Part shown: positions 6,022 to 33,946 of the stretch, one piece after another
How the letters are laid out: every line of letters begins with the position of its first letter
Position numbering within the stretch: the stretch's first letter is position 1
Origin: a virus
Length of the DNA: 40,463 nt
Reading direction: 5' to 3' (one strand)
Virus record (IMG/VR): IMGVR_UViG_3300031669_000085
Span: 1 to 40,463 of that record
Notes under the pieces: generated by a model
What the model was told of the DNA's origin: nothing
The model's input: only the letters and a program-made list of their open reading frames with translations
Database searches by the model: none
Program-made: the position numbers and the translations under genes

Positions 6022-6437
6022 GGGGCTGAACTGGTATCGACCATGCTGTGGAAGACTGATGCTGCGTGTCGCGGACTCGCTGGCCGCGTTAACAAGCGAG
6101 AACACATTTAGCTGCCAACGCTATCAATAGCGTCGAGGACTTGGAAGCTCTCTGGGCCAACGCACCGGCTCCGGTTGAGGCTCCGGCCCTCTCCCTCGCC
6201 TAGCCAGCGCAGGGATAACCCCGCCTCGTAGTGTGTTCGGACTACGAGGAAGGCTTTACGAACTGCGTGCTGACGTGGTTGACCCGGTCAGCGCCGAGGA
6301 TACAACAGGAGTCAATAGGCTGCGGGAAGAGTTGCTGGTTCCCGGCTCGTAGCTGAGAATCTGATAGGAATCAGACACACACGTAGATGCTCAGACGGAA
6401 ACACATTGGGACCGGGGTTCGATTCCCCGCAGCTCCA
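6022..6437 (+). ncRNA. ssrA: tmRNA (3' end displaced by an insertion)
   Basis: 5' GGGGCTG pairs with 3' CAGCTCC; the 3' end has a T-arm with GGTTCGATTCC. The tag frame starts at GCT 6111 or GCC 6114, reads (A)ANAINSVEDL... and ends in PALSLA at TAG 6201, about 29-30 residues, much longer than typical bacterial tags and of the size known in actinophage tmRNAs. Downstream pseudoknot-like GC repeats are visible. It releases stalled ribosomes and tags products for proteolysis. After the discriminator the genomic sequence is AAT, not CCA; the CCA-bearing end is found after the next gene at 7146-7148. CCA can be added by the host enzyme, so function may persist. Confidence 0.9.
6421..6437 (+). repeat. 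17-bp direct repeat, left copy (tmRNA 3' end)
   Basis: GATTCCCCGCAGCTCCA, the T-arm/acceptor end of tmRNA, repeated exactly at 7129-7145. The two copies flank the Vsr-like endonuclease gene. Confidence 0.9.
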
Positions 6438-6455
6438 AATATATCCACATGTTCA

Positions 6456-6499
6456 TTGACATACCAACTCCACTAGTGTAGATTGCCACTAGAGGAGGT
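6456..6499 (+). promoter_or_regulatory. Promoter inside an inverted repeat, upstream of Vsr-like endonuclease
   Basis: TTGACA (6456-6461), 17-nt spacer, TAGATT (6479-6484). Arms CTCCACTAGTG (6468-6478) and CACTAGAGGAG (6487-6497) match except for one base and cover the ribosome site AGGAGG. This is the same architecture as at 115 and 1912, although this protein has no obvious helix-turn-helix. Confidence 0.65.
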
Positions 6500-6506
6500 C
6501 TGAACT

Positions 6507-7130
6507 GTGGTGACGATAAGGTGTGCTGTTTGTGGCGCGGAAAAGGAGATTCCAAAGAAGGAGTGTGACCGTCAGAACCGTCGCGGGCGGTCACACTTCT
6601 TCTGCGGTAGATCCTGCGCGGCAGTCGCGCGAAACGCACCGAGGAGGGTGCAAGACGTACAGAAAACGTGTCCTTGGTGTGGGAAGACGTTTGAGTCTAC
6701 CACAAAAGCCAAGGCTGCTTCGTACTGTTCGCGTTCGTGCGCGTCGAAATCGTCGGTAACGGTCGCACGTCGAAACTGCGCGCGTAAGATTGGCAAACTG
6801 CACGCAACGAATTTAACTTATACAATTGAGCAGACTGCGAACGGACTTAGAAAACGAGAAGGGTGGAAGTACGTCAGACTTGCGACATTTCTTCTTGGGA
6901 AGGGTGTTCGGCATCAATTTGAATATCCGCTCGAACATTGGGTATTCGATTTGGCCTTATTCGACACGAAAACGCTGATTGAGTTCGATGGTCCGTATCA
7001 TAACACAACTCGACAGCGCGACGAGGATAGCCAAAAAACTGGAGATGCGAGAAAGTGCGGGTGGCAGGTAATCAGAGTTTCAACGTCTGTCGGAGTCATT
7101 GATCCGACAGTGTTGAAGCCTTTTGTATGA
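6507..7130 (+). CDS. Vsr/DUF559-like homing endonuclease inserted in tmRNA
   Basis: 207 residues from GTG 6507, 7 nt after AGGAGGT. Two zinc fingers come first (CAVCGAEK...FFCGRSC and CPWCGKTF...YCSRSC), then a PD-(D/E)xK nuclease of the Vsr type: FDLALFDTKTLIEFDGPYHN...RDEDSQKTGDARKCGWQVIRV, with the catalytic Asp/Glu/His visible. Homing enzymes of this group (I-Bth0305I type) are known in phages. The stop codon is created by the T-G-A at the start of the right 17-bp repeat. Insertion into tmRNA is read directly from the repeats; cleavage of the empty site is inference. Confidence 0.85.
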   Translation: MVTIRCAVCGAEKEIPKKECDRQNRRGRSHFFCGRSCAAVARNAPRRVQDVQKTCPWCGKTFESTTKAKAASYCSRSCASKSSVTVARRNCARKIGKLHATNLTYTIEQTANGLRKREGWKYVRLATFLLGKGVRHQFEYPLEHWVFDLALFDTKTLIEFDGPYHNTTRQRDEDSQKTGDARKCGWQVIRVSTSVGVIDPTVLKPFV

Positions 7131-7145
7131 TTCCCCGCAGCTCCA
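7129..7145 (+). repeat. 17-bp direct repeat, right copy
   Basis: Exact copy of 6421-6437. It is followed by CCA at 7146-7148, so this copy has the natural tRNA-like terminus while the left copy does not. Confidence 0.9.
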
Positions 7146-7160
7146 CCACTTGGAGATCAC

Positions 7161-7530: not shown

Positions 7531-7565
7531 AGGGGTCGCTGGTTCGAATTCAGTCATTCCGACCA
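7531..7565 (+). pseudogene. tRNA 3'-half fragment
   Basis: T-arm GCTGG-TTCGAAT-TCAGT, acceptor strand CATTCCG, A73 and CCA. No matching 5' strand (CGGAATG) was found. A Pro-like G72 suggests a lost second Pro tRNA. Confidence 0.65.
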
Positions 7566-9821: not shown

Positions 9822-9857
9822 GTCAGATTGTGGGTTCGACTCCCATTCTCGGCTCCA
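9822..9857 (+). pseudogene. tRNA 3'-half fragment
   Basis: T-arm GTGGG-TTCGACT-CCCAT, acceptor strand TCTCGGC, T73 and CCA. No matching GCCGAGA 5' strand stands upstream. It abuts the ribosome site of the next HNH gene, again pairing a tRNA scar with an endonuclease. Confidence 0.65.
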
Positions 9858-10435: not shown

Positions 10436-10906
10436 ATGGCAAGAAACGACAAACAATGCGTCTTGTGCAGACGCTGGAAGAACCGAAGCGAGTTCAACAA
10501 ACGAAAACGCAGTCGTGACGGTCTGCAGAACGTTTGTCGAATATGCAATGCTGAAAGGTCACGAAGGTACTATCGAGAGAATCACGAGAAGCATCTGCGC
10601 GATACGATTGACCGCAATAGGAGGTACGGAAAAGAGCTTCGTCGTCGAGTAGACGCCGTCAAGCGCGTCAACGGATGCGTCTTTTGTAGTGAACGGGAGC
10701 CGGTGGCTCTTGATTTTCATCATCGCGGCGACAAAGAAGACTGCATTGCCACGATGATCGCGCACAGACGTTCGTGGAAAAGATCAGTCGCCGAGATTCT
10801 GAAATGCGTTGTCGTGTGCGCGTCGTGCCATAGAAAAGTAACGGCTGGTATACTGCAGATACCGAAAGGATCTGGATGCCAGATACCGAATGATCTGGGG
10901 GTATAA
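10436..10906 (+). CDS. HNH endonuclease next to tRNA-Lys
   Basis: 156 residues, same family as 3394-3861. N-terminal finger CVLCRRWKNRSEF...CRICN, basic helix, then HNH core CVFCSE, LDFHHRGD, CASCHRK. There is no ribosome site; the start fits a leaderless transcript. The last 10 bases overlap tRNA-Lys(TTT), as the paralogue overlaps tRNA-Cys. It is probably a mobile endonuclease-tRNA unit. Catalytic residues look intact. Confidence 0.86.
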   Translation: MARNDKQCVLCRRWKNRSEFNKRKRSRDGLQNVCRICNAERSRRYYRENHEKHLRDTIDRNRRYGKELRRRVDAVKRVNGCVFCSEREPVALDFHHRGDKEDCIATMIAHRRSWKRSVAEILKCVVVCASCHRKVTAGILQIPKGSGCQIPNDLGV

Positions 10907-12621: not shown

Positions 12622-12660
12622 AGGGTGCCCGTGGGGGTTCAAATCCCCCTCTCAGCACCA
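12622..12660 (+). pseudogene. tRNA 3'-half fragment
   Basis: T-arm GGGGG-TTCAAAT-CCCCC, acceptor strand TCTCAGC, A73 and CCA. The preceding GGGTGCCC could be part of a long variable arm, suggesting a Ser or Leu tRNA. No 5' half with GCTGAGA was found nearby. Confidence 0.6.
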
Positions 12661-12726: not shown

Positions 12727-14352
12727 ATGCCTAACAAGACACTTTTTAACAGCGCCCGAGCAGCAGTACCGAAGGTCGATGCCGTGAACGAGGCTGGTGG
12801 GACGGCCTACACGCTAACCCCGAAGCAGGCGCTCGCACAGATTGCGCTTACTGGCGCTTTCAATGGAACGTTCTACGTCTCCGCTAATCAGCAACTGGAT
12901 GCCGTGAAGGCGCTTCTTCCCAAGGTTGGCGCAGAATACGTCGCGAAGCTCGCGGTCGTGGCGAGGACGCAGGGCTACATGAAGGACATGCCTGCATTCC
13001 TCGTGACGTATCTCGCGATGAAGCACCGTGATCGGAAGGATCTCCTGAAGTCGGTATTCCCGCTGGTTGTGGACAATGGGAAGATGCTCCGAAACGTGAT
13101 CACGTTCGTTCGATCAGGAGTGTTCGACGACAAGCGAACCTTCCCACAGCCACTCCGAAAGGAGCTTGCTGGCTGGTTCAAGCGGAATCCGGATCAGATC
13201 TTCCGTGCGACGGTTGGAAACGATCCGTCGATGCGCGACATCCTGCGAATGCTCCACATTCGGCCGGAGACGAAGATGCACGAGTCGCTCTTCGCCTACA
13301 TCGTGGGCAAGGATGCGAAGGGTCCGCTGCCTGAGATCGTTCAGAAGTTCGAGGCGTTCAAGGCAGATCCGGCGAACGCCGAGGTTCCGAAGGTCGACTT
13401 CCGGATGCTGACTGGCATCGAGATTCCGGACTCTGTCTGGAAGCAGATCGCCACCGACGCACGATGGATGATGACGCGGATGAACCTGAACACGTTCATG
13501 CGGCACAACGTGTTTGAGGACAGCGCCATGGTCAAGATGATCGCAGCGCGTCTCGCTGACGCCGAAGAGATCAAGAAGTCCATGGCATTTCCGTACCAGC
13601 TTCTGGCTGCGTACAGGGCGATCAATGCTGCGATGCCTCGTGAGATCGTCGATGCGCTCCATGACGCAATGGAAATCGCGACGGACAATGTTCCGGTCAT
13701 AGACGGAAACGTCGTGATCGCACTCGACACGTCTGGATCGATGCATGGCGCTGCGATTACGGGAAACCGTGGGTCCGCAACGTCGGCAGTCCGATGCGTT
13801 GACGTGGCCGCGCTGGTGGCAGCGGCGATCATGAGGAAGAACATGGCCGCACGGGTTCTTCCGTTCGACACGCAGATCAGGCGAGTCAAGATCGAACCGC
13901 GTGACACGGTGATGTCGAATGCCGAGAAGCTCGCACGTCTCGGTGGCGGCGGAACCAACTGCTCTCTGCCTCTCGCGAAGCTGAACGCCGAGAAGGCAAT
14001 GGTCGACGCGGTAATCTACGTCTCGGACTACGAGTCGTGGGTAGATTCGGGGCGTTACTCTGGATACGGCCGGGGAACCGGGGTGATGGAAGAGTGGATC
14101 AAGCTGAAGACCCGATGTCGGGGTGCGAAGCTTGTCTGCATCGACCTGACCCCGCAGGGAACCGGGCAGGTATCGCCACGGCAGGACATCCTGCAGGTTG
14201 GCGGATTCTCTGATCAGGTGTTCAACGTTGTCGCAGACTTCATCGCGAACCCGTCGAACAACGCATGGGTCCAGAGGATCGAAGCAGTGGATCTCAAGAT
14301 TTCCTCGAAGGGCGAGTCTTCGGACGAGCCTGCAGAGGAATCGACCGAGTAG
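12727..14352 (+). CDS. TROVE domain protein (Ro60 orthologue)
   Basis: 541 residues, ATG 12727 behind AAAGGAGGG. Residues about 20-325 are the helical TROVE ring domain (repeats such as AKLAVVARTQGYMKDMPAFLV and LDAVKALLPKVG). They are followed by a von Willebrand A domain whose MIDAS motif DTSGSM lies at about 334-339. Ro60 proteins form a ring that binds the ends of misfolded RNAs in the centre and Y RNAs on the outside; in bacteria they can tether PNPase through a Y RNA. The C-terminus is an acidic tail (SSKGESSDEPAEESTE). Codon use is more GC-rich than in its neighbours. Its stop lies 10 nt before Y-RNA-like RNA J, and three more follow, which supports a Ro60-Y RNA system. Confidence 0.93.
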   Translation: MPNKTLFNSARAAVPKVDAVNEAGGTAYTLTPKQALAQIALTGAFNGTFYVSANQQLDAVKALLPKVGAEYVAKLAVVARTQGYMKDMPAFLVTYLAMKHRDRKDLLKSVFPLVVDNGKMLRNVITFVRSGVFDDKRTFPQPLRKELAGWFKRNPDQIFRATVGNDPSMRDILRMLHIRPETKMHESLFAYIVGKDAKGPLPEIVQKFEAFKADPANAEVPKVDFRMLTGIEIPDSVWKQIATDARWMMTRMNLNTFMRHNVFEDSAMVKMIAARLADAEEIKKSMAFPYQLLAAYRAINAAMPREIVDALHDAMEIATDNVPVIDGNVVIALDTSGSMHGAAITGNRGSATSAVRCVDVAALVAAAIMRKNMAARVLPFDTQIRRVKIEPRDTVMSNAEKLARLGGGGTNCSLPLAKLNAEKAMVDAVIYVSDYESWVDSGRYSGYGRGTGVMEEWIKLKTRCRGAKLVCIDLTPQGTGQVSPRQDILQVGGFSDQVFNVVADFIANPSNNAWVQRIEAVDLKISSKGESSDEPAEESTE

Positions 14353-16269: not shown

Positions 16270-18210
16270 ATGCCCACGCTAAAGCCCTTCTTTCAAGACG
16301 AGAACTGTATCATCTACAATGCGTCGTCATACGACATCATCCTTCATCTCGAAGAGCAGTTTGACTCGGTGATCACCGATCCTCCCTACGGGATCGATGT
16401 CAGCACGTGGGACTACGATGTCCCAAGTCTTCGATTCTGGAGAAACGTCAGGAGAATGGCGAAGCCCGGAGCGCTACTGCTATCATTTGGTGGCCCGAGG
16501 ACATTCCATCGTCTTGCCTGCGAGATTGACGACGCAGGATGGGAAATCAAGGACTGCATCTCGTGGTTATACGGTTGCCTGAGCGACGACACCGAGGTAT
16601 TGACGCGCGATGGGTGGGAACGCTACCATACAGCCAAAAGAAAGGAGATTCTGGCGTATGATCCTCAAGCCGACGTTTACCAATGGGAAAAGCCTGAGCG
16701 GTGGTCCGCTTACCGTGTCGAGCAAGATACCGCCTACCGAATTAAGTCGGATACGACGGATCAGATCGTTAGCCGAAATCATCGTTGCCTTGTTGAACGA
16801 TGCGGAAGTCTTACATTCGTGGCGGCAGAAGAATGCGCTGGCGTGGAGCGCGTGCCGTACCTGCAATGCGATCTTTCTGCATTACCGCAAGGACGTAGGT
16901 CACTACTGCTCCAGGCCGTGCTGCGGCAAGGCGAAGGACTGGCTGAAACTGCACTCTGCGAACGGCAAGGGCAAGATGCGACCGGGCACAGGGCTGGTTG
17001 GCCCGAAGAACCCGGCATGGAAGGGCGGGCTGACCTACTTCAAGCGGAAGGGCAAGTACGCCAACCAGTCGATCAAGTACGTTCGATGTCCTGCGGAGTT
17101 TGCGGCGATGGCGCGTCGGGATGGCTACGTCGCGGAGCATCGGTTACTAGTGGCCATGGAGATGGAGCTGCCGCTGTTGCGGAGCGAGTGCGTACATCAC
17201 GTCAACCACGACGCGATGGACAACCGACTGGAGAACCTGATGCTGTTCGCGTCGAACGCGGATCACAAGCGGCACGAACACGGACAAGCTATCAAATATC
17301 TCTGGCAACTGTCACGCCCATCGCCTACTCTGGCCTGATCTTCTGCCCGACCGTCAGCACTGGTGCGTTTGTCGCCAGGCGAAATGGCAAGGTGTTTATC
17401 ACCGGCAACTCTGGCTTCCCGAAATCTCTTGATATCAGCAAAGCCGTTGACAAGCAGCTTGGCGCAGAGCGCGAGAAGGTACAGACTCCCGTCGTTGTGT
17501 CGACGAAGTTCACTAACGACAAGGAGAGCATTCGTCCGTGGATAAAGCGGGCAGTCGAGCTTGGATATCACGAGCATGATGGAGATGTTCCAGCGTCGCC
17601 AGAAGGTGAGTTATGGCATGGGTGGAAGACGACGCTCAAGCCTGCGTGGGAACCAATCATTGTCGCAATGAATCCGCTTCACGGATCGTTTGCTGAGAAC
17701 GCGCTCAATTATGGGGTTGCAGGATTCAACGTTGAAGAAGCTCGCATTGAATCAGAGGAGCGCCCCGACAAAGTTCCAGCAATGTCAACTGACTCGGCCA
17801 ATCCCATCACGCTCGCCGACAGCGGATTCATGGGCGGAACAAAGATTATTGGAACAACGACTCGTGGACGATTGCCTACGAATGTCATTATTGACGAAGA
17901 CGCGGCCAAGATTCTCGAAGAACAAAAAGAAGGCGCATCTCGATTCTTCTACTGTGCTAAGGTGACGACCGGGCGTGGAAAGATGAATTCTCATCCGACC
18001 GTTAAACCACTGTCGCTCATGCGGTATCTCTGCACGCTGACGAAAACGCCGACCGGAGGAACTGTTCTTGACCCGTTTGCCGGTTCTGGCACAACGCTGG
18101 TCGCCGCACTTGAGTGCGGCCGCAAGGCAATCGGAATTGAGATCGATCGACACTACTGCGAGATCGCCGCGAAGCGTGTGGTCGACTTCTTTCGGAAGAA
18201 TCGCTCCTAG
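16270..18210 (+). CDS. DNA methyltransferase (beta class) interrupted by an intein
   Basis: 646 codons; about 368 residues after removal of the intein. The N-terminal part holds motif IV, TDPPYGID, at about residues 36-42, typical of N6-adenine or N4-cytosine enzymes. The C-terminal part has FAGSGTTLVAALECGRKAIGIEID at about 603, the AdoMet-binding motif I. This order (IV before I) marks the beta class. The host protein continues WLYG/SGFPKSLDISK across the intein, a conserved stretch of these enzymes. It may protect phage DNA against restriction. ATG 16270 has only weak ribosome binding sequence (GGAG at 16260-16263). Confidence 0.88.
   Translation: MPTLKPFFQDENCIIYNASSYDIILHLEEQFDSVITDPPYGIDVSTWDYDVPSLRFWRNVRRMAKPGALLLSFGGPRTFHRLACEIDDAGWEIKDCISWLYGCLSDDTEVLTRDGWERYHTAKRKEILAYDPQADVYQWEKPERWSAYRVEQDTAYRIKSDTTDQIVSRNHRCLVERCGSLTFVAAEECAGVERVPYLQCDLSALPQGRRSLLLQAVLRQGEGLAETALCERQGQDATGHRAGWPEEPGMEGRADLLQAEGQVRQPVDQVRSMSCGVCGDGASGWLRRGASVTSGHGDGAAAVAERVRTSRQPRRDGQPTGEPDAVRVERGSQAARTRTSYQISLATVTPIAYSGLIFCPTVSTGAFVARRNGKVFITGNSGFPKSLDISKAVDKQLGAEREKVQTPVVVSTKFTNDKESIRPWIKRAVELGYHEHDGDVPASPEGELWHGWKTTLKPAWEPIIVAMNPLHGSFAENALNYGVAGFNVEEARIESEERPDKVPAMSTDSANPITLADSGFMGGTKIIGTTTRGRLPTNVIIDEDAAKILEEQKEGASRFFYCAKVTTGRGKMNSHPTVKPLSLMRYLCTLTKTPTGGTVLDPFAGSGTTLVAALECGRKAIGIEIDRHYCEIAAKRVVDFFRKNRS
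16576..17409 (+). mobile_element. Intein in the methyltransferase
   Basis: Begins with Cys (CLSDDTEVLTRDGWERY, splicing block A), has a block B-like IVSRNHRCLVER, and ends ...VSTGAFVARRNGKVFITGN before Ser, the C-terminal extein residue. The penultimate His is replaced by Gly. Residues between about 200 and 355 of the protein have no intein character in this frame, since that DNA encodes an HNH enzyme in another frame. The Hint splicing halves remain in one frame without stops. 278 residues. Confidence 0.82.
16658..17338 (+). CDS. HNH endonuclease encoded in a different frame inside the intein
   Basis: In the +1 frame relative to the methyltransferase, an open frame ends at 17338. A possible internal start at ATG 16658 follows AAAGGAG by about 10 nt. 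From about 16835 the product has a zinc finger (CRTCNAIFLHYRKDVGHYCSRPC), NPAWKGG and an HNH core with EHRLLVAMEMELPLL...CVHHVNHDAMDNRLENL, all diagnostic. The first roughly 60 codons overlap genuine intein coding sequence and look non-native, so the real start may be later or expression may need a frameshift. Confidence 0.7.
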   Translation: MILKPTFTNGKSLSGGPLTVSSKIPPTELSRIRRIRSLAEIIVALLNDAEVLHSWRQKNALAWSACRTCNAIFLHYRKDVGHYCSRPCCGKAKDWLKLHSANGKGKMRPGTGLVGPKNPAWKGGLTYFKRKGKYANQSIKYVRCPAEFAAMARRDGYVAEHRLLVAMEMELPLLRSECVHHVNHDAMDNRLENLMLFASNADHKRHEHGQAIKYLWQLSRPSPTLA

Positions 18211-22270: not shown

Positions 22271-22798
22271 ATGGCTGGGAAGAGATCAGCTGGCGTTGAT
22301 ATCAACGGCAATCCATTCGAAGGACGCGAGGGAATAGAGCGCCGACGAGCAATTGTTCTCGATCTCACCCGTCGTGGGATGACGAATCACGCAATTGCGA
22401 AGATTCTCAAGGTTCATCGCAATACTGTCACAAATGATCTGAAGGCTATCAAGAAGTTTCAGGCCGAGGCAGTTCGAAATCTCGATCCTGACGAAGAAAC
22501 TGGATCTGCTCTCGACTATTACACCAAGATTCGCGATCAGGCGTACGCTCAGTATCTCGAAGCAAAGAATCCAAATGCAAAGCTTGGATTCTTGCAGGCC
22601 GCTCTTCGGGCGCAAGATATGCACGTGAAGCTTCTCATGGATACCGGAACAATCGACAAGACTCCGACGAAGGTATCTAGCAGTCTTTCGGGAGCAGTTC
22701 AGCACGCGCATACCGGATTCGAGAAGAAGACTACCGACGAACTTCACGACCGACTTCGCGTCCTTCGCGACGATCTTGGAGTTACGGGAACTGGATAA
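22271..22798 (+). CDS. Terminase small subunit (probable)
   Basis: 175 residues, ATG 22271, two bases after the upstream stop. An HTH lies at about 30-60 (LTRRGMTNHAIAKILKVHRNTVTNDL), a DNA-recognition fold typical of terminase small subunits, followed by helices likely to form the oligomer ring. Its TAA overlaps the ATG of the large subunit. Assignment rests on the HTH and on position. Confidence 0.78.
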   Translation: MAGKRSAGVDINGNPFEGREGIERRRAIVLDLTRRGMTNHAIAKILKVHRNTVTNDLKAIKKFQAEAVRNLDPDEETGSALDYYTKIRDQAYAQYLEAKNPNAKLGFLQAALRAQDMHVKLLMDTGTIDKTPTKVSSSLSGAVQHAHTGFEKKTTDELHDRLRVLRDDLGVTGTG

Positions 22799-25700
22799 TG
22801 TCACCTGCCGAGACGCCGAAATCAAAGAAACGAGTCGCTGTTGGGAACAAGATACTTTCCCGAAGACAGCAGCTTATGTTTTCGAAGAAGCTCTCTGAAT
22901 TAGAGGCCATTGAACGAGAACTGCAGCGGCGTACCAATCTTACCAACCCAATGGTGTACGGGCTTCCCGACCTACTCTTTGGAAAAGACGAAGAGCCAGG
23001 AGTCCTCAACGAGTCGACCGGTGAGGTAGAGCGTCAGATACGAGCGATTCCAGAATCTGATGATGAGTATCGCGAGCGACAGAACGCTGCCGTAAAGAAT
23101 ATCATTGAGACTCATCTGCACTTCACGAAGGACGGACGTCAGATAGACATCAGGTTCATTGACAAACAGGTGGCGTTCATATCCGACTTCTTCTTCGGCC
23201 GCGTGAAGCGCGGTATTCTATGGAAGGGACGTGGATGTCTAACCCCAGAGAATCTGGTGGTCTCGAATCGAGGTCTCATCCCTATTTCGAAACTCACCGC
23301 CGACGATCTGGTAATTAACCGGGACGGCCGGTTGACCGAGGTCGTGGACGTAGTCCCCCGCAAATATCGCGGGAAGATAGTGCGGCTGGAGATCAACGGC
23401 AACGGACAGAAGCTCGGATTCACCCCCGACCACCTCGTGCTTGGAATACGAACTTCTAGATGCAATCAGAAGGAAGGGAACTGCGGAAGGACGGTCTGCA
23501 CCAATCTGTGTACGCGTTCTTGCCCTAACCGATTCTGGGAGACCTACCGGGAAGATTGGATCGAGGCTGGAAGTCTCCGAAAGGGCGACCTAGTATTCGT
23601 GCCGTCTCCAGTCACCAATCCAGAGGCTCGTAACATCTCATTCTCCGGGTGCGCCAATCAGCACTGGACTGGCTCCTGCTCGTTTCCCATGAACGACGAG
23701 TTCTTCCGATTACTGGGATATTGGCTGGCTGAGGGAGATGCCCACGTTCCCGGAAGACGCGTCCGGCTGGCATTCGAGTCCGGAAAGGACGACCGATTCA
23801 TTGCCGACGCCGTTCAAATTGTAGATGCTCTCATGGGTCTAAAGGCTGGAATAGAGGAAGATGGAAGGAAGAAGTCGGTTATTATTCACAGCGCCGGACT
23901 AGCCAAAGTCCTCTCTTCATTTGGCAAAGTTCGAAGCAAAGGAGTTCCGCTTCAATTCCTCTCGAAGGCATCGAACTCGCAACTTCGTAATCTGGTCGTT
24001 GGGATGCTCCGAGGAGACGGACACTGGGACGGAACATCGATTCGAGCCTCGTGGTGCTCTCCTCTCGTAGCTGCTGATTTCATGTATGCATGTTGGAGAC
24101 TCGGCTTTACCCCATCCTGCAGAATTGTCGAAGGACAAGACCGGGAGGGTTTCCTCGTCAATCGATCTGGTGATCAGTTCTATCTTCAGATCGGCGGACA
24201 TCCTGGCCGAGAGCTAGCCAAGCTGGCATGGGAAGTCGACGCCGCTCCTCTGCAGAACGATCCAATGAATACTCAACGCCGCTGGTTCCGAGAAGGGAAG
24301 GTATTCTCCCGGGTCGACAAGGTCTCGACGGAGGACTACGACGGAGACGTCTGGGACATTGAAGTTGCCGAGGGCTCTTCATTCTGCCTTCCGTATCTGG
24401 TAGCGCATAACTGTGGTGGATCGTTGTGCGCCGCGATTCTTATATGGCTAACTATGATCTACAAGAATATGTCGTTCATCGATCTTGGTGGATCGATGGA
24501 GCAATCAAGAGTTGTGTATGAATACGTGTGCGCATTCTGGGATTGTATTCCAAATATGCGCGAGAGGCTTCTCTCCAAAGATCCTCTCATCTCAATGACG
24601 AAACTGATAACTGGCGTGCAGCTGAAATGCATCGTTCCCGGCACGCTCGTTCTCACTGATCGCGGGATCATTCCAGTGGAGAGCGTTGTCGTCGGTGATC
24701 GGGTCATCGCTGGAGACGGTAGATTCAGTTCAGTTAAGATGACGATTACACGACGTCACCGAGGAGACGTGGTCAGAGTAGTTCCAGTTGGGTATGGGCG
24801 CGGGTTCGAAACTACCCTCGATCATCAAATATGGGCCATGAAAGTCGCGCGGCCAGTCCGACACGCTCTTCAGCGCGGTGAGGCGGTCGACGAGATCCCG
24901 AAAGCAGATTGGATAGAGGCCCAAGACCTTGAAATTGGCGACGTTCTTCCAGTTCCGAAATTGCGCACAGACCCTTCTCCGAAGACGCTCATTCTGGAAG
25001 ACTTACGATCTCGGAGACGGGGGCCAAAGCCGCTGATTTCTATTCCGATTACACCGGACTTCTATCGTCTTCTCGGCTACGTGCTTGCTGATGGAAGCAG
25101 CCATAAGCAATGGATCAATATCGCCTTTGGCGATCACGAGACAGCGAACATCGATGATTGCGTACGTCTTGTTCGATCATGTCTCGACCGGAAAGCATGT
25201 GTCCTATCTCGGCCAGACAAGGCAATCAAGATTGTTCACTTCAGCTTTATGGCCTTCGCGCAGTGGTTGCGAGACAACTGTGGAAAGCGAGAAGAGAAGG
25301 AACTGCCCCTGTGGCTTCTTGAGCAGGCTACTGACATCGAGATACGGGAATTCGTAGTCGGAGCAGTTAGGGGAGACGGCGGCTTTAATGAATCGGTCTC
25401 GGAGTCGGGGACGAAGCGCAAGATGCAGTTTACTAATACTTCGTCGAAACTAACTCAGTCAGTGATGCTCGCATGCCATCGGCTAGGTCTGGTTGGCGGT
25501 CTTATTCTTCCAAAGTCTCGAAAGTCGACTATTCGAGGTAAAGAGTTCGTTTCGAAGCAGCAGTACAATTGGCAAATAACAGGAACCGCATGCGACCAAC
25601 TCGCAACTATGCTAGGGCAAGAGTGGAAGAGCGAGAAGTCAAAGAGCTTTCAGCAGGGATGGCATGACGATACGCACGTATATCGGCCGATTAAGAAAAT

Positions 25701-28700
25701 CGAGCGTCGTCAGTATGATGGACCAGTCGTCGATCTGGTGATCGACGGTCATCCATCGTTCACGCTTCCCGGCGCACTCGTCCATAATTGCATTCCGGCA
25801 TCAGAGAAGATGGCGCGAGGAAAGCACCTTCCCGGTCTCGTTGCCGACGAGGCGTCAATAGTTCCCGGGACTCTCATATGGACTCGTCGCGGGGTCGTTC
25901 CTATAGAGACCATCGTTACCGACGACATTGTACTCGCTGCCGATGGACAGTGGCGAAAAGTCGTTGCTACTACGAGTCATCCGTATTCCGGAAAGATTGT
26001 AAAACTCACTGGTTGCGGTGATGGGATCGGGGCATGGATTACCGAGGAGCATCGAGTATTTGGCGCTACCGGTATCGGGGTAACGCGAGTTTTGAATGAT
26101 CGCGTATACGCGTCATTTGACACGGCACTTCCATCGTCAGACTGGCACCGAGCATGGGACTATGATGTAGGCGACGTGCTGTCTTATCCGCGCCCCCAGC
26201 GAGTTGGAAATCTCCCTGAATTTCTCGTGTCGGGCGACCCCCAGCTCTGGCGGTTTCTTGGGTACTGGTGCGGAGATGGCGGAGCGCCGGTAACGAAAAC
26301 GGACAATTATCCGATCAAGCTTCATCTCGACACAGCGAAGTCGTTTTTCGTTAATGATGCGCTTGAGTGCATGTCGCACGTTCTCAATAGATGGGTCCGA
26401 ACTGAGACGTCCCCGTCACGCTCGAACTCAATTGATCTGGTCGTATCGAGTTGTAAAGAATGGTGGGAGCGGCTTAGAAACCTCGTTGGCATGCAGGACG
26501 ATCGTGGAATTCCGCTTGAATGGCTTGAGGCCGCGTCGGACGACGACCTACGGAATTTCATGATAGGACTCCTGCGAACGGACGGGGGTCCGGCGTTTAG
26601 ACCCGACGGCGTCTTATCGAAATGGTCGTGGACCGGAACATCCCAGCATCTTGCGGCAAATGTTATGTACTGTACAAGTCGCCTAGGAATTCCCGCATCT
26701 GTGGGAACACGCGGTTCGGCCAGGCACGGAATTCCGTCGAAGCCTCAGTGGGATGTCCACATTCGGTGGGACTACGCCAAGAAAATACTGCTTGACGAAG
26801 ATGTTGAGGGAATGCGCCTTCCAACGAAGGCAGTCAATCCGAAGCAGTGGTGCGATGAGTCGTTGTGGCATTCCGTTATTACAAAGATCGACGAAGATCA
26901 TTATGAGGGCACGGTCTACGATCTGCAGGTAGAGGGCAATCCATCATTCGGGTGCTTGCAACGGCTGATGCTCCACAACTGCCAGAACGACATCAACGCG
27001 GACACAACGTTCAAAGCCGCTATGCAGATGTCAATGTCAGAGCCCGATCACATGATCCTCTTATTGTCGACGTTTCATCATCCCGTCGGGCTGTTCCAAG
27101 AAGTCTGGGATACTGCTGAGTCCAAAGGCTTCGCTCGATATAAGTGGAACTGCGTACTGCCGGATACGTGGATGCTCACGTCGAGCGGATTCCGGCAAGC
27201 TAAGTCGGTGATTGCTGGCGACTCTGTGCTTTCGGAGGACGGTAATTTTCATCTTGTTGAACGATCTTGGTCGCAGACCAGCGCGAAAGACGTAGTCAAG
27301 GTTGTTCCGTACGGCTGGTTCACGGGATTTGAGGTAACGCACGATCACAAGTTACTGGTAATGCGGGATGGTACAAGGCAGTGGATAACTGCTGATGCAC
27401 TGAGAGCAGAATCTGACTTGCTCGTGTTCCCGACAGGACACCTGTCCGATGCAATACAGAAGGTTAATCTCAGTTACGAGGACGCACGTTTCGCGAGTGA
27501 TCGGGTGGACCAAGTTTTAGACATGACGCCCGATCTTGCGCGATTGGTGGGATATTGGCTGGGGGATGGGTGTCTTGATGGCGAAAAGGTCGTGGCGTCG
27601 TTCGGAGATCCCGAGAAGTACAAGGACGATTACATTGCTCTTGTGAAGTCCCTATTCTCGCGAACAGTAACTGTAGATAAGGATGTGCCGAATGAGCGAG
27701 GCCAATTCCAACATCGGGGATTCGTTAAATGGCTGAGTGAGAATGCGCGAGACGAAAACGGCGCGAAAGGACTCAGTTGGAGCATTTTCAATTCGTTGAC
27801 GCGAGAGGCGGCGGAGCAACTGGTAATCGGGTTGTTGCGGACAGCCGGTAACGTGTCGCTCCACAGAAACAATGCGTTGAAGGTGTCGTTTGGTCAAGTG
27901 TCGCAATTGCTATCTCAACAGATGTTCATGTTGCTTGCGAGACTCGGTTACCATCCGTCATTAGGCAGGAGGAAGCAACGAGACTCTGTGTATAATGACC
28001 GGGTAATCAGTGGCGACGACTACTGGGAAATCTACGTAAACGGAGATGGCGCATGTTCACTTGCTGAGTTGCTCGGTATGACATTCCGCGAAGCTCGCTC
28101 CGTGCGAGCGAAATTCAAGATTGTCGGCGATGAGCAGCTTGTGAGAATCCGAAAGATCGAGCGCCGATCTTACGTTGGACCGGTGTTTGATTTTGCCGTA
28201 CGTGACGTGCATTCGTTCGCTTTTCCGTGGGCGATTGCGCACAACTGTTTCGATGTCATGAAGACGTGCGATGCAGGTTTAGATGGGGCTACGCCAGAAG
28301 ATCCAGATGCGCTGACTTTCTGCCAAACGTCATGTCCGCTTACCGTGAAAGAACCGCTATACGACGAGAATGATCAACTTATCGGCCACCGATTCAATGG
28401 ATGCAATGGAACGTCGAGACACTCAAATGGATTCCTTCCACGCGACAATGTGATCAACGCACTCGTGTTGAATGAAGGATCAGAGATCTTCCGAGTCGAG
28501 TTTGCTTGCGAACGCCCGCAGTTCAGTGGTCCGATCTACGGACTAGCGGCAATTGAGAACGCACTTACTGATGAAATGGAGATTGATGATACCGAGACTA
28601 CCCTAGTCGGAATTGACTGGGGCGTTACCGAGGGATCACTCGTTCTCGGGAAGGATTCGGTGGCTAATGGACCTCAGGTCATCGAGACAAAATTCCTGTC

Positions 28701-29190
28701 GGTTAAACTAGTCTCCGAATACATCAAGGTTCTATCCGACTGGCAAGATGAGTATGGAAAACTTGAAATCTACGCCGACTCCTCACACCAATTCAATATT
28801 GGAGACCTTGAAGAAGTTGGATTCGAGGTTACGCCAATCGATTTCGCGACAATGAAGGAGTACGGGATAGGAAACCTCCTCAAGATGTTCATGTATGGGA
28901 AGATAAAGATTCTCGACGACAACACCCATCTCGTTGACCAACTGAAGTCATACCGAAAAGATCCGAAGACTGGCAAGCCGATCAAAATCAACGATCACGG
29001 GCCTGACGCATTGTTATGTATGACGATCACTATCGATTTTCTAGAACGATGGAGTGATCTGATCACGGCACGTGCTCAAGGTATTACTCGAAATAAAGTG
29101 CTAAAAACTATGAATGAACTAGGCATTCAATCCGATTCTAATGTTGACGAAAAACCCGTTGACAGAGATAGTGGTGTAATGATATTCTGA
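22798..29190 (+). CDS. terL: Terminase large subunit with four inteins
   Basis: 2130 codons; about 611 residues after removal of four inteins. ATG 22798 overlaps the small subunit stop. The ATPase is broken at active sites: Walker A (KGRG/CGGSLCAA, intein 1), an internal position (VQLK/CIPASEK, intein 2), Walker B (LVADEA/CQND, intein 3) and a downstream motif (KWN/CFDVMK, intein 4). The C-terminal RNase H-like nuclease has GIDWG at about 1938-1942, ADSSHQF, and DHGPDALL near 2080. It packages DNA into proheads via the portal and needs correct splicing of all four inteins. Confidence 0.95.
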   Translation: MSPAETPKSKKRVAVGNKILSRRQQLMFSKKLSELEAIERELQRRTNLTNPMVYGLPDLLFGKDEEPGVLNESTGEVERQIRAIPESDDEYRERQNAAVKNIIETHLHFTKDGRQIDIRFIDKQVAFISDFFFGRVKRGILWKGRGCLTPENLVVSNRGLIPISKLTADDLVINRDGRLTEVVDVVPRKYRGKIVRLEINGNGQKLGFTPDHLVLGIRTSRCNQKEGNCGRTVCTNLCTRSCPNRFWETYREDWIEAGSLRKGDLVFVPSPVTNPEARNISFSGCANQHWTGSCSFPMNDEFFRLLGYWLAEGDAHVPGRRVRLAFESGKDDRFIADAVQIVDALMGLKAGIEEDGRKKSVIIHSAGLAKVLSSFGKVRSKGVPLQFLSKASNSQLRNLVVGMLRGDGHWDGTSIRASWCSPLVAADFMYACWRLGFTPSCRIVEGQDREGFLVNRSGDQFYLQIGGHPGRELAKLAWEVDAAPLQNDPMNTQRRWFREGKVFSRVDKVSTEDYDGDVWDIEVAEGSSFCLPYLVAHNCGGSLCAAILIWLTMIYKNMSFIDLGGSMEQSRVVYEYVCAFWDCIPNMRERLLSKDPLISMTKLITGVQLKCIVPGTLVLTDRGIIPVESVVVGDRVIAGDGRFSSVKMTITRRHRGDVVRVVPVGYGRGFETTLDHQIWAMKVARPVRHALQRGEAVDEIPKADWIEAQDLEIGDVLPVPKLRTDPSPKTLILEDLRSRRRGPKPLISIPITPDFYRLLGYVLADGSSHKQWINIAFGDHETANIDDCVRLVRSCLDRKACVLSRPDKAIKIVHFSFMAFAQWLRDNCGKREEKELPLWLLEQATDIEIREFVVGAVRGDGGFNESVSESGTKRKMQFTNTSSKLTQSVMLACHRLGLVGGLILPKSRKSTIRGKEFVSKQQYNWQITGTACDQLATMLGQEWKSEKSKSFQQGWHDDTHVYRPIKKIERRQYDGPVVDLVIDGHPSFTLPGALVHNCIPASEKMARGKHLPGLVADEASIVPGTLIWTRRGVVPIETIVTDDIVLAADGQWRKVVATTSHPYSGKIVKLTGCGDGIGAWITEEHRVFGATGIGVTRVLNDRVYASFDTALPSSDWHRAWDYDVGDVLSYPRPQRVGNLPEFLVSGDPQLWRFLGYWCGDGGAPVTKTDNYPIKLHLDTAKSFFVNDALECMSHVLNRWVRTETSPSRSNSIDLVVSSCKEWWERLRNLVGMQDDRGIPLEWLEAASDDDLRNFMIGLLRTDGGPAFRPDGVLSKWSWTGTSQHLAANVMYCTSRLGIPASVGTRGSARHGIPSKPQWDVHIRWDYAKKILLDEDVEGMRLPTKAVNPKQWCDESLWHSVITKIDEDHYEGTVYDLQVEGNPSFGCLQRLMLHNCQNDINADTTFKAAMQMSMSEPDHMILLLSTFHHPVGLFQEVWDTAESKGFARYKWNCVLPDTWMLTSSGFRQAKSVIAGDSVLSEDGNFHLVERSWSQTSAKDVVKVVPYGWFTGFEVTHDHKLLVMRDGTRQWITADALRAESDLLVFPTGHLSDAIQKVNLSYEDARFASDRVDQVLDMTPDLARLVGYWLGDGCLDGEKVVASFGDPEKYKDDYIALVKSLFSRTVTVDKDVPNERGQFQHRGFVKWLSENARDENGAKGLSWSIFNSLTREAAEQLVIGLLRTAGNVSLHRNNALKVSFGQVSQLLSQQMFMLLARLGYHPSLGRRKQRDSVYNDRVISGDDYWEIYVNGDGACSLAELLGMTFREARSVRAKFKIVGDEQLVRIRKIERRSYVGPVFDFAVRDVHSFAFPWAIAHNCFDVMKTCDAGLDGATPEDPDALTFCQTSCPLTVKEPLYDENDQLIGHRFNGCNGTSRHSNGFLPRDNVINALVLNEGSEIFRVEFACERPQFSGPIYGLAAIENALTDEMEIDDTETTLVGIDWGVTEGSLVLGKDSVANGPQVIETKFLSVKLVSEYIKVLSDWQDEYGKLEIYADSSHQFNIGDLEEVGFEVTPIDFATMKEYGIGNLLKMFMYGKIKILDDNTHLVDQLKSYRKDPKTGKPIKINDHGPDALLCMTITIDFLERWSDLITARAQGITRNKVLKTMNELGIQSDSNVDEKPVDRDSGVMIF
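23236..24411 (+). mobile_element. Terminase intein 1 (Walker A site)
   Basis: 392 residues; Cys1 (CLTPENLVVSNRGLIPI) to ...CLPYLVAHN before Cys. LAGLIDADG-type endonuclease motifs LLGYWLAEG and VVGMLRGDG each retain an acidic residue. A Cys-rich insert (CNQKEGNCGRTVCTNLCTRSC) suggests a metal site. Confidence 0.92.
24628..25788 (+). mobile_element. Terminase intein 2
   Basis: 387 residues; Cys1 (CIVPGTLVLTDRGIIPVE) to ...TLPGALVHN before Cys. Endonuclease motifs LLGYVLADG and VVGAVRGDG keep both Asp residues. Confidence 0.92.
25855..26979 (+). mobile_element. Terminase intein 3 (Walker B site)
   Basis: 375 residues; begins with Ser (SIVPGTLIWTRRGVVPIE), an allowed but less common first residue, and ends ...RLMLHN before Cys. 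Motifs FLGYWCGDG and MIGLLRTDG retain Asp. Sits directly after DEA. Confidence 0.92.
27151..28245 (+). mobile_element. Terminase intein 4, endonuclease probably inactive
   Basis: 365 residues; Cys1 (CVLPDTWMLTSSGFRQAK) to ...FPWAIAHN before Cys. First motif LVGYWLGDG is intact, but the second reads VIGLLRTAG, with Ala where the catalytic Asp should be. Confidence 0.92.
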
Positions 29191-30660: not shown

Positions 30661-30873
30661 GTGTGCATGCCGTTCGAGTACAAACTCGTTCGGCTGTGTA
30701 TTGATCACGATGCTGAGTCACGGATGACCGCGCTCGGTGCTCGTGGATGGCGATTAGCTGGAATGGACGGCGGCTACGCGATATTCAGCCGCCGTCCTCC
30801 TAGTGCAATCGACCTCGATGTTCCACGAGTAGACCCGGACCGGTGTGAAATCGAGAAATCTGCCCGTGGGTGA
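30661..30873 (+). CDS. DUF4177-like small protein
   Basis: 70 residues, GTG 30661 or ATG 30667. PFEYKLVRLC...AESRMTALGARGWRLAGMDGGYAIFSRRPP fits the DUF4177 pattern (YEY...LNxLGxxGW...R), a small alpha/beta protein of unknown role. Its 3' end overlaps the annotated portal start by 29 nt. Confidence 0.72.
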   Translation: MCMPFEYKLVRLCIDHDAESRMTALGARGWRLAGMDGGYAIFSRRPPSAIDLDVPRVDPDRCEIEKSARG

Positions 30874-33800
30874 ATCTGTCACAGATATGGCTGTCGCCGA
30901 CCTCGTTAAAGAGGTGAGTGAAGAGCTTCCTATCGTAGCAGAACTCATTGGCGATGAGACCGAGAAGCTCGATATCACCATTGACGACATCATCAGCAAA
31001 AACATCAGCGGAGTCGTTCAACAGGAGATCGATATTCTTCAGGAGACGACGCTAGATCTCAAGAAGAAGGTTGTCTCGCCTCCATACGATCCATTGAAGC
31101 TCGCTCTCATGCTTGAGATCAATACTCGATTGATGCGAGCATGTCATCTTCGCGCTCGCAACACAATAGGTCTTGGGTGGGCGATTCAGCCAGTTCCTGC
31201 TGATCCTGACGAAGAGCAGGCTCCGGCAATTAATCAGAAGGAATATTCACGTCAGAAGAAGCTTCTTAAGAAGCTCTATTCTGATCCTACTCCAAATGCG
31301 GGAATGATGCCGGGGTCGGTGTCGACACCACTCGACTTCTCCGAAGTATCGTATCGGATGAAGGTCGATGAGGAGTCAACAGGAACCGGATACTATGAGA
31401 TTACCCGTGACAACAAGGGTGAGATCGACGGCATCTACAATATTCCTGCGCATACTGTTCGAGCCCTCAACTCTGGCGGCTTCGTTCAGATACGGGGAAG
31501 GAAGAAGAAGTTCTTCAAGCGCTTTGGAGACATTCGCGTCGTGTCGTCAGAATCGGGCGAGCAGGAATCAAATCTTTCGATAGAAAAGCGAGCAACTGAG
31601 CTTCTTCCGAATCTCATCTATAGCTCACGATCCTCCTTCTATGGAATTCCTCGCTGGATCTCAGCTGTTGCTGCTGTTCAGGGTTCGCGGCTAGCGGCCG
31701 TTCGAAATATGGCATTCTTCGAGAACGATGCGGTCGGGAGAATGGCCATAGTAGTATCTGGCGGAGCACTTACACAACAGTCAGTGCAGGACATCCGCAC
31801 ATTCGTGAATCGAGAGGGCAAAGGCGTCGAAAAGGCTCATCGCGTGATGGTGCTTCAGGCCGAACCCCGCCGAGTCATCAGCAGTAAGGGTGTCGGAACA
31901 AAGATCGATGTCGTGCCGCTGACAGTCGGTATCAGCGAAGATGCTTCGTTTGGTACATATCGCAGCGCGAACGACGAGGAGGTTCGAGAAGCATCCGGAC
32001 TTTCGTCACCATTCTTTACGTCTGAGGGCGTCAACCGTGCCTGCCTTGTTGGGGATACCCGACTTCCGTTGCTCGACGGCCGCACGCTGACGATGCGCGA
32101 GCTGGCTGATGAGCACGCTGACGAGAAGTTCTGGGTGTATGCGTGTGACGGCAGCAGGATTGTTCCCGGGTACGCCCACTCTCCGAGGAAGATGAGGGAC
32201 GATGCGCAGCTAGTTGAAGTTTTGCTTGATAACGGAGAGTCCATCAAGTGCACCCCAGACCACCTCTTTATGCTCAGAGACGGGTCTTACAAAGAGGCTC
32301 AGAAACTATCCTTCGGCGACCGGCTAATGCCCTTCCGACAGAAGATTCCTACGTCTGGGTTCAACATGGGCCATCGCTTCTATAAGATGCTGACAAAGGG
32401 CTGGGAGACTGTACATGCGATGGTTGCGCGGGAGTCTTTTGGGTACGCTCCTTCCGCAGATACGGTGATTCATCATCGAGACCTCAACAAGCTTAACAAT
32501 GTTCCGGATAACCTGACGGCAGAGACCCCGTCTTCTCACGCTGCAATTCACATGGCGCAGAGGATGGAGAATGAGGAGTTTTGTAGGAAGGCCGAGGAGG
32601 CGCGCAAAGCTGGCTGGGCTAGGTGGGCGGCTGAGAATCCTGAGAAGGTTAGTCAGATTGCACGGACTGCTTCTGATGCGCTACGAGAAAAGTGGGCTGA
32701 CGACGAGTTTCGGGAGAGAATGATCAAGATTTTCTGTGAGGCCCGGTCCAGCGACGATTGTCGACGAGCCTTCGTACAACGAATGCGTCCAATAATCACT
32801 TCCCCGGAATTTGTCCTCCGACTTACTGATCGTGTGCGCGCTCTGTGGAAGAGCCCCGCATTTAGGGAAAAGCAGCGCGCAGCAGTCTCTAATGCGGTTA
32901 AGGATCGCTGGAGCACTTACGAGGACGAGAAGTCTCGCGCACTTCAACCGATGCGAGATGCTCGGCGCAATGACGATGTTACGTTTGCCCAAATATGCTG
33001 TGCCGCTGCTCGCTCGTCTTCGTGGAAAGAGCTGTGTGGCGCAGTTGGGGCGAGTCGAAGTAGAGTCGTTCGAATACTTCGTGACAATGATACGACATAC
33101 GAAAACCTGAAGCGCGACAATCACAGAGTAGTGTCCGTGTCCGATGCCGGAACAGCTGACGTCTACGACATTACAGTGGATGACTATCACAACTTTGCTA
33201 CGATGGCGGGAGTGTTCGTACACAATTCGGCCAATGTTTTGAGGAAGATCACAATCGAACAGGATCTCATTCCAGATCTTCGTTCGCACCAGCACGTACT
33301 CAATAGGACGGTATCAAAGGACGTGTTGACAGCGTCATTGAGCGCGGCCCAACTGGGAAGATTTCAGCCCATCGCAGAACTTCGGTATCTCCCTCCTGCA
33401 AGTGTGGACGAACTTGAGGAGGCGCAGATTCAGGGCATGTATGCTCGTTCTGGTATTGTCACGATCAATGAGGCGAGACTTAAGCTTGGGCTCAAGGCGC
33501 TACCGCCAGACTTCGTATATGGGCAGCTTCCGTTGCCAATGGCGCTTAGTCTTCTTGAGATGGGACTTCTATATCAGGGAGCTATCACTTCGGATGGCGT
33601 TGAATCGTATGACGCTACCGTAGCTGCCGCGCAAGAGCAGGCACGCGTCGCCGCCGAAGCAAAGGCTACTGCAACGGCATCCGCTAAATCGGCGTCCTCC
33701 GAAGGAGCACCGCCTCCCCCAGCTGGAGCATCGGCACAGAAGTCTCTATATTCGTCCGAGAGTACCAAGCGGCTCGATAAGATCAATGAAATGACCGGCA

Positions 33801-33946
33801 TGGCAACTCGACTCAGGCATTTTCTCAAAGAGAAGCTCGGTCGAGATATGATTTCGGCTGAGATCATTTTCCAGAACCGCGCAGGTGAGACGGTTGACCG
33901 GATCTCGCTCGGGGATCTGAGCGACGAGGAGGATTCCAATGAATAA
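30845..33946 (+). CDS. Portal protein with one intein
   Basis: 1033 codons; about 638 residues after splicing. The N-extein (DPLKLALMLEINTRLMRACHLRARNTIGLGW..., with RNMAFFENDAVGRMAIVVSGG) and C-extein (SANVLRKITIEQDLIPDLRSHQHVLNR..., with EEAQIQGMYARSGIVTINEARLKLGL) show the core of HK97/SPP1-type portals. The portal forms the dodecameric DNA gate where terminase docks. GTG 30845 lacks a good ribosome site and overlaps the previous gene; GTG 30866 or ATG 30887 may be the real start. The stop overlaps the protease start by 8 nt. A low-complexity Ala/Glu run lies near the C-terminus. Confidence 0.9.
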   Translation: MKSRNLPVGESVTDMAVADLVKEVSEELPIVAELIGDETEKLDITIDDIISKNISGVVQQEIDILQETTLDLKKKVVSPPYDPLKLALMLEINTRLMRACHLRARNTIGLGWAIQPVPADPDEEQAPAINQKEYSRQKKLLKKLYSDPTPNAGMMPGSVSTPLDFSEVSYRMKVDEESTGTGYYEITRDNKGEIDGIYNIPAHTVRALNSGGFVQIRGRKKKFFKRFGDIRVVSSESGEQESNLSIEKRATELLPNLIYSSRSSFYGIPRWISAVAAVQGSRLAAVRNMAFFENDAVGRMAIVVSGGALTQQSVQDIRTFVNREGKGVEKAHRVMVLQAEPRRVISSKGVGTKIDVVPLTVGISEDASFGTYRSANDEEVREASGLSSPFFTSEGVNRACLVGDTRLPLLDGRTLTMRELADEHADEKFWVYACDGSRIVPGYAHSPRKMRDDAQLVEVLLDNGESIKCTPDHLFMLRDGSYKEAQKLSFGDRLMPFRQKIPTSGFNMGHRFYKMLTKGWETVHAMVARESFGYAPSADTVIHHRDLNKLNNVPDNLTAETPSSHAAIHMAQRMENEEFCRKAEEARKAGWARWAAENPEKVSQIARTASDALREKWADDEFRERMIKIFCEARSSDDCRRAFVQRMRPIITSPEFVLRLTDRVRALWKSPAFREKQRAAVSNAVKDRWSTYEDEKSRALQPMRDARRNDDVTFAQICCAAARSSSWKELCGAVGASRSRVVRILRDNDTTYENLKRDNHRVVSVSDAGTADVYDITVDDYHNFATMAGVFVHNSANVLRKITIEQDLIPDLRSHQHVLNRTVSKDVLTASLSAAQLGRFQPIAELRYLPPASVDELEEAQIQGMYARSGIVTINEARLKLGLKALPPDFVYGQLPLPMALSLLEMGLLYQGAITSDGVESYDATVAAAQEQARVAAEAKATATASAKSASSEGAPPPPAGASAQKSLYSSESTKRLDKINEMTGMATRLRHFLKEKLGRDMISAEIIFQNRAGETVDRISLGDLSDEEDSNE
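32042..33226 (+). mobile_element. Intein in the portal, with HNH endonuclease
   Basis: 395 residues; Cys1 (CLVGDTRLPLLDGRTLT) to ...FATMAGVFVHN before Ser. The inserted endonuclease is HNH (VIHHRDLNKLNNVPDNL) followed by NUMOD-like basic helices, unlike the LAGLIDADG inteins of the terminase. Confidence 0.92.

Follow-up and report, generated by a model that had tools for sequence, protein, structure and literature searches.

The tmRNA gene of the phage studied here carries an endonuclease gene directly behind its 3' end, together with a second copy of that end. The best explanation is a homing element of the EDxHD/Vsr-like type, free-standing and specific for phage tmRNA 3' ends (probability about 0.8). 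The window, by which we mean the whole stretch of DNA that was analysed, is a linear viral contig of 40,463 bases with a dense tRNA gene array and one tmRNA. The locus comprises the following features, all on the plus strand.

6022..6437, +, tmRNA (ssrA) gene, detected by ARAGORN and by Rfam RF00023 (118.8 bits, E 5e-46)
6421..6437, +, left copy of the tmRNA 3' end, from T-loop G57 to the discriminator base
6438..6506, +, element linker of 69 nt with promoter-like and ribosome-binding-site-like sites and a motif common with other linkers
6507..7130, +, endonuclease gene of 207 aa with a GTG start, identified from its open frame, Pfam, invariant residues and predicted structure
7129..7148, +, right copy of the tmRNA 3' end with CCA, displaced and probably native, with counterparts in L006 and L035

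The 17-nt 3' end of the tmRNA, GATTCCCCGCAGCTCCA, was found in two exact copies, at 6421-6437 and 7129-7145, which are offset by 708 nt; there was no further exact occurrence in the 40,463-base record. The left copy pairs at 7/7 positions with the acceptor 5' strand and at 5/5 positions in the T-stem. Since it completes the tmRNA, whose tag is ANAINSVEDLEALWANAPAPVEAPALSLA, the RNA gene stays whole despite the insertion. The nucleotides directly 3' are AAT after the left copy and CCA after the right copy, and the 3' end of the window tmRNA has no encoded CCA. Each of the 27 tRNAs checked in the window has a terminal CCA, which makes the tmRNA the exception. When the window was scored for tmRNA ends, the observed score was 17 and the best chance score 12; none of 2974 sampled positions, which took in real tRNA ends, was as good. 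The TGA stop of the endonuclease gene lies at 7128-7130. A preliminary description, made from the sequence alone, had claimed an exact 17-nt repeat of the tmRNA end behind a Vsr-like gene, with a left copy that completes the tmRNA without CCA and a right copy with CCA. The repeat was borne out by its coordinates, and the roles of the two copies by sequence and pairing. The right repeat was also said to provide the stop codon; this is correct for the last two bases of the TGA, which come from the right copy, and incorrect for the first. The specificity that had been assumed for the 17-mer is lower, since some phage tRNA-Ala genes share this 3' end.

The endonuclease gene fills most of the insertion (6438-7128). 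Within the linker in front of it, 6456-6484 resembles a promoter (TTGACA-17-TAGATT) and AGGAGGT at 6493-6499 resembles a ribosome-binding site. A TATCTCCAC-like motif is common to the linkers of the window and of four other phages, and it exceeds what composition gives (1 of 500 shuffles of the five linkers was as good). The common motif hints that the linker may travel together with the endonuclease gene. The reading frame is free-standing, being complete, with its own promoter-like site and outside any intron. A group I intron in the tmRNA was considered and rejected, as the region 6438-7148 gave no match to group I or other intron families at E up to 10 and leaves too little non-coding sequence.

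Two four-cysteine (zinc-finger-like) motifs were found in the protein, at aa 6-37 and aa 55-78, followed by a Vsr/DUF559/EDxHD-like nuclease domain at about aa 115-203. Pfam DUF559 (PF04480) matched above its cut-off with 34.8 bits, and the related MTES_1575 family matched below its own cut-off. The eight cysteines of the two groups are invariant among six homologues, as are E139, D148, E159, D161, H165 and D174. The order of these acidic and histidine residues is compatible with the E, D, H, D of EDxHD enzymes, the comparison with I-Bth0305I being one of residue order. The structure predicted for the 207-aa protein had a mean pLDDT of 82 and a pTM of 0.49. Its top PDB match was the catalytic domain of I-Bth0305I (3r3p, E 1.1e-3, probability 1.00) and its second was Vsr (1vsr), and sequence profiles also matched the endonuclease-like protein 3hrl. 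VIA-align gave Z 8.3 for I-Bth0305I and 8.2 for Vsr, among several other top matches, and a Z of about 8 is not decisive alone. A Vsr-like nuclease fold was thus found in the model of the 207-aa protein. The preliminary identification as a homing endonuclease agrees with the fold search, which ranked a homing endonuclease, I-Bth0305I, first.

Four other viral lineages, on contigs of 73 to about 513 kb, have homologues with 32-47% identity behind the tmRNA end. The distance from tmRNA end to gene is 53-61 nt in these four and, in the window, 69 nt, measured from an encoded CCA if there is one and otherwise from the discriminator base; gene and tmRNA are on the same strand in all five. The 160-kb contig L006 was found through its tmRNA 3' end; its homologous gene begins 57 nt past the tmRNA, the protein is 47% identical to that of the window, and GGGGTTCGATTCCCGCCAGCTCCA, a near copy of its own tmRNA 3' end, follows directly after the stop codon. 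An alignment-based search placed the gene right behind the tmRNA in L033 (about 513 kb) and L035 (436 kb), and the L035 gene has GGACTCCCGCCGCCTCCACCA behind it, which copies the end of that phage's own tmRNA. The gene is also right behind the tmRNA in L040, which is identical to L041 over 5.6 kb (contigs of 73 and 64 kb). A second copy of the tmRNA end just behind the gene was therefore present in three of the five lineages (window, L006 and L035); L033 and L040 showed none that could be recognised. Each record, searched as a whole, gave a single full-length homologue, and in the four tmRNA-bearing lineages besides the window this homologue adjoins the one tmRNA that scored above the cut-off. 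The carriers are metagenomic contigs without exception. The L040 tmRNA (1997-2430) has an unusual T-arm, ACGAC TATCGTAT GTCGT, without TTCGANT, possibly a cleavage-resistant target.

The tmRNAs of these loci are 31-45% identical to each other, and DNA similarity among the loci is almost nil beyond tRNA genes, tmRNA ends and short parts of the endonuclease gene. Such low similarity indicates repeated association and not descent of one locus, and the presence of the same arrangement in at least four other unrelated bacterial viruses indicates a recurrent mobile element and not a one-off accident. The chance of placement behind the tmRNA was estimated as about 3e-18 jointly for the five lineages and 8e-12 for the three found by protein alone, figures which assume uniform placement, ignore any hot spot and serve only as a guide. 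The site-specific recurrence by which a free-standing homing endonuclease is recognised was seen in five phage lineages. The proposal in the preliminary description, a mobile endonuclease gene in the tmRNA end with a function-preserving duplicate, was largely supported by these related loci, three of five having the second copy.

The strong linkage to tmRNA in five phages could also mean that the Vsr-like protein acts on RNA, in processing of the phage tmRNA or in attack on the host tmRNA, and is a functional partner and not a selfish gene. RNA binding by some proteins of the same fold is described in PMC11879112, and mitoribosome matches appeared in our structure searches. We consider such a role very unlikely, however, as homologues were found without a nearby tmRNA. 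One is present on the 120-kb contig L034, on which no tmRNA was detected; this contig also counts against an element specific for tmRNA, as does the lack of a recognisable right copy in L033 and L040. Another, L054, is a second and divergent homologue in the L006 phage, and no tRNA was found within its 3.3-kb locus. A nuclease-domain homologue also lies inside a longer, intein-like gene of L036, the invariant acidic and histidine residues and the zinc-finger-like motifs fit a DNA endonuclease, and action on RNA would leave the displaced right copies unexplained. The L054 homologue is flanked by an 18-nt repeat, 83% identical (1420-1437 and 2224-2241), which may be due to chance. The L036 match (2200-3360) is partial and lies within an apparent intein, judged by eye; it suggests that the same nuclease serves inteins too.

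To return to the homing element, the right copies were compared with the tmRNA in front of them. All seven positions (7/7) of the resident tmRNA's 5' strand, which reads GGGGCTG in the window and in L006 and GGGGGCG in L035, pair with the acceptor strand of the right copy. Together with the CCA, this suggests that the left copy may have been supplied by the element and that the right copy is probably native. Within both L006 and L035, the right copy departs from the left at two T-stem positions, the same two in each phage (CCCGC versus CCCC[G/T]), and there matches the Rfam consensus. The differences would be consistent with a right copy that is native and a left copy that was imported; drift of the freed copy is also possible.

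Because the tRNA-Ala genes of L010, L011 and L015 end in exactly the 3' sequence of the window, it was worth testing whether the right 17 nt are what is left of a tRNA-Ala gene that once followed the tmRNA and had its 5' part replaced by the endonuclease gene, with no duplication of the tmRNA end. The tmRNA and tRNA-Ala can have identical acceptor and T-arm, and this tRNA array contains other tRNA 3'-half remnants. The remnant explanation is nevertheless quite improbable, as the right copies fit the resident tmRNA in three of three phages. The right copy of L035 has the acceptor strand CGCCTCC, which pairs with its own tmRNA, whereas the one extra match to the 17-nt end pattern in that record has CAGCTCC; in the window and L006 records the pattern occurs only at the two tmRNA copies. 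In addition, a window tmRNA without CCA among tRNAs that all have CCA, as far as checked, looks as if its native end had been displaced.

The topology of a replacement end on the left and a native end with CCA on the right also matches that of an integrase-mediated island, and tmRNA is a common integrase target (PMC11915505). The locus might in that case be the scar of such an island, with attL and attR at the tmRNA end and the endonuclease gene as leftover cargo. We regard this as highly improbable: the insertion is only about 708 bp with one gene, the three loci with both copies have no integrase between the repeats, and only this gene family occurs at a fixed short distance in five unrelated phages. 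Free-standing endonucleases of T4 often cut far from their own genes (PMC2988022), and the enzyme could similarly cut elsewhere, for example in tRNA genes of rival phages, much as T4 SegB acts in the tRNA region, and merely be parked behind the tmRNA, the right copies being unrelated tandem duplications. This appears unlikely, since the right copies adjoin the gene end in three phages with the same T-loop start in two, and unrelated phages repeatedly have the gene at this position after the tmRNA. In the window and L035 the right copy is homologous from TTC|GAYTCC, in the T-loop, onwards; in L006 the homology reaches further.

The preliminary description had called for related phages with an uninterrupted tmRNA ending in CCA. 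Searches by capsid protein, tmRNA and other proteins found none, and no empty-site close relative of the window's phage was obtained, so the insertion was inferred from the architecture and from comparison with unrelated phages. The capsid-protein searches returned eight fragments (7-25 kb) whose capsid proteins are closely related, plus a single distant match, L031 (106 kb); no tmRNA was present in the six capsid-relative records examined. Searches with the tmRNA 5' end and with the Ro60-like protein gave no relatives. Neither the endonuclease nor the L033, L035 and L006 loci had a close relative among phage reference records, and the patterns used detected no homologue of the endonuclease in bacterial and archaeal genome contigs. 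Loci with both repeats and no gene, which the preliminary description had named as evidence against insertion, were not seen. As the records yielded no SmpB gene, the tmRNA would depend on SmpB of the host.

Other features of the array and of the viral records were as follows. The window has three further endonuclease-like genes, 160-726 (HNH by Pfam), 3316-3861 and 10436-10906 (both without a Pfam match), the stop codons of which fall inside the 5' end of the next tRNA (717, 3847 and 10897). Orphan tRNA 3' ends with CCA lie at 3934-3961, 7538-7565, 9830-9857 and 12633-12660, several of them just after an intact tRNA; no matching 5' halves were found upstream of these four. The orphan ends are signs of repeated recombination or insertion in the array. 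A selenocysteine tRNA match (4250-4334) scored 44.9 bits, just below the family cut-off of 47. A Y-RNA-like match (YrlA, 1110-1243) scored 39.1 bits, below the cut-off of 69, and the same phage has a gene for a Ro60/TROVE-like protein (12727-14352). Several inteins are apparent by eye in the long reading frames 22798-29190, 30845-33946 and 16270-18210 (terminase-, portal- and methylase-like). Message-less tRNA-like domains of tmRNA, 76-80 nt long with a G3-U70 acceptor and a T-arm, were detected in three viral groups (L003, L004, L007, L009 and L012; L005; L013/L014). They look like new members of the form known from phage DS6A, which is similarly message-less and inhibits tmRNA when expressed in E. 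coli (PMC11915505).

In the mechanism that we propose for the homing element, the zinc-finger-like motifs would bind the uninterrupted tmRNA gene and the Vsr-like domain would cut it near the T-loop, a position suggested by the start of the right-copy homology. The T-loop of the tmRNA is thereby named as the likely cleavage site. During mixed infection, recombinational repair from the element-bearing phage would copy the gene into the cut tmRNA. The inserted segment would consist of a replacement tmRNA 3' end, the promoter and the endonuclease gene. By virtue of the replacement end the tmRNA would keep a full tRNA-like domain, and the native end with CCA would come to lie behind the gene, available there as a short arm of homology. 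As the insertion splits the target, the carrier would be protected from its own enzyme. The tmRNA of the window would have lost its encoded CCA and would need the CCA-adding enzyme of the host. The empty site of the window would have the tmRNA end CAGCTCCACCA joined directly to the flank CTTGGAGATCACATGG. We infer cleavage and mobility from this architecture and its recurrence.

Somewhat better than even is our estimate for the broader proposal, a family of phage mobile elements with the unit 'tmRNA 3' end + promoter + Vsr/EDxHD endonuclease', in which a portable copy of 17-24 nt of the tRNA-like domain keeps the tmRNA working and acts as a homology arm, and which moves between the tmRNA genes of unrelated phages. 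If this is true, the family would parallel the integrase islands at tRNA genes, with a nuclease in place of the integrase. The locus also suggests how large phage arrays gain, cap and reshuffle their tRNA and tmRNA genes.

Among known systems, the mobile ORFs of fungal mitochondria are the closest working parallel. In these, an endonuclease gene is inserted together with a replacement 3' end of the host gene, with the native 3' end displaced downstream of the inserted gene; examples are the Allomyces macrogynus atp6 element and those in Glomus atp6, atp9, cox2 and nad3 (PMC3630166). The insertion is near the 3' end of a conserved gene, which is kept in phase by the replacement end (PMC3630166). 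The window, L006 and L035 have the same plan of replacement end and displaced native end. However, fungal mobile ORFs have mitochondrial protein-coding targets and LAGLIDADG or GIY-YIG enzymes, whereas the target here is a phage RNA gene, and the carried end is only 17-24 nt, unlike theirs. Because its enzyme is DUF559/Vsr-like and its target a phage RNA gene, the element works like a fungal mobile ORF and is not a member of that group.

I-Bth0305I, an EDxHD enzyme, is the best structural match, is phage-borne and likewise has modular DNA-binding parts, but it is intron-encoded, whereas the window enzyme is free-standing, has two four-cysteine motifs and is located at tmRNA. The gene of T4 SegB is likewise free-standing, lies in a phage tRNA array and has its own promoter (PMC2988022). 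SegB is, however, a GIY-YIG enzyme, for which the review gives distant cut sites and no replacement end of an RNA gene (PMC2988022).

Group I introns, which sometimes carry a homing endonuclease gene, invade the conserved tmRNA T-loop (PMC11915505) and thus share the target; in the insertion described here no intron was found, and as the left copy restores the RNA there is nothing to splice, unlike the case of the introns. The 3' end of tmRNA is also a common site of islands and integrases (PMC11915505). The two-end topology is the same in both cases, but here the insertion has a single endonuclease gene of about 0.6 kb and no integrase. Integrase islands at tRNA and tmRNA genes have a replacement 3' end on one side and the native end on the other side. 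In the literature covered, which was a part of the whole, no published report of a free-standing endonuclease gene at tmRNA was found. The element would be an endonuclease gene that invades a functional phage RNA gene without splicing, by means of a carried replacement RNA end, in five unrelated lineages, and it would connect homing in phages with the use of a 'replacement 3' end' by fungal mobile ORFs and by integrase islands. None of these known systems is identical with it, as its enzyme is Vsr/EDxHD-like, free-standing and tied to tmRNA.
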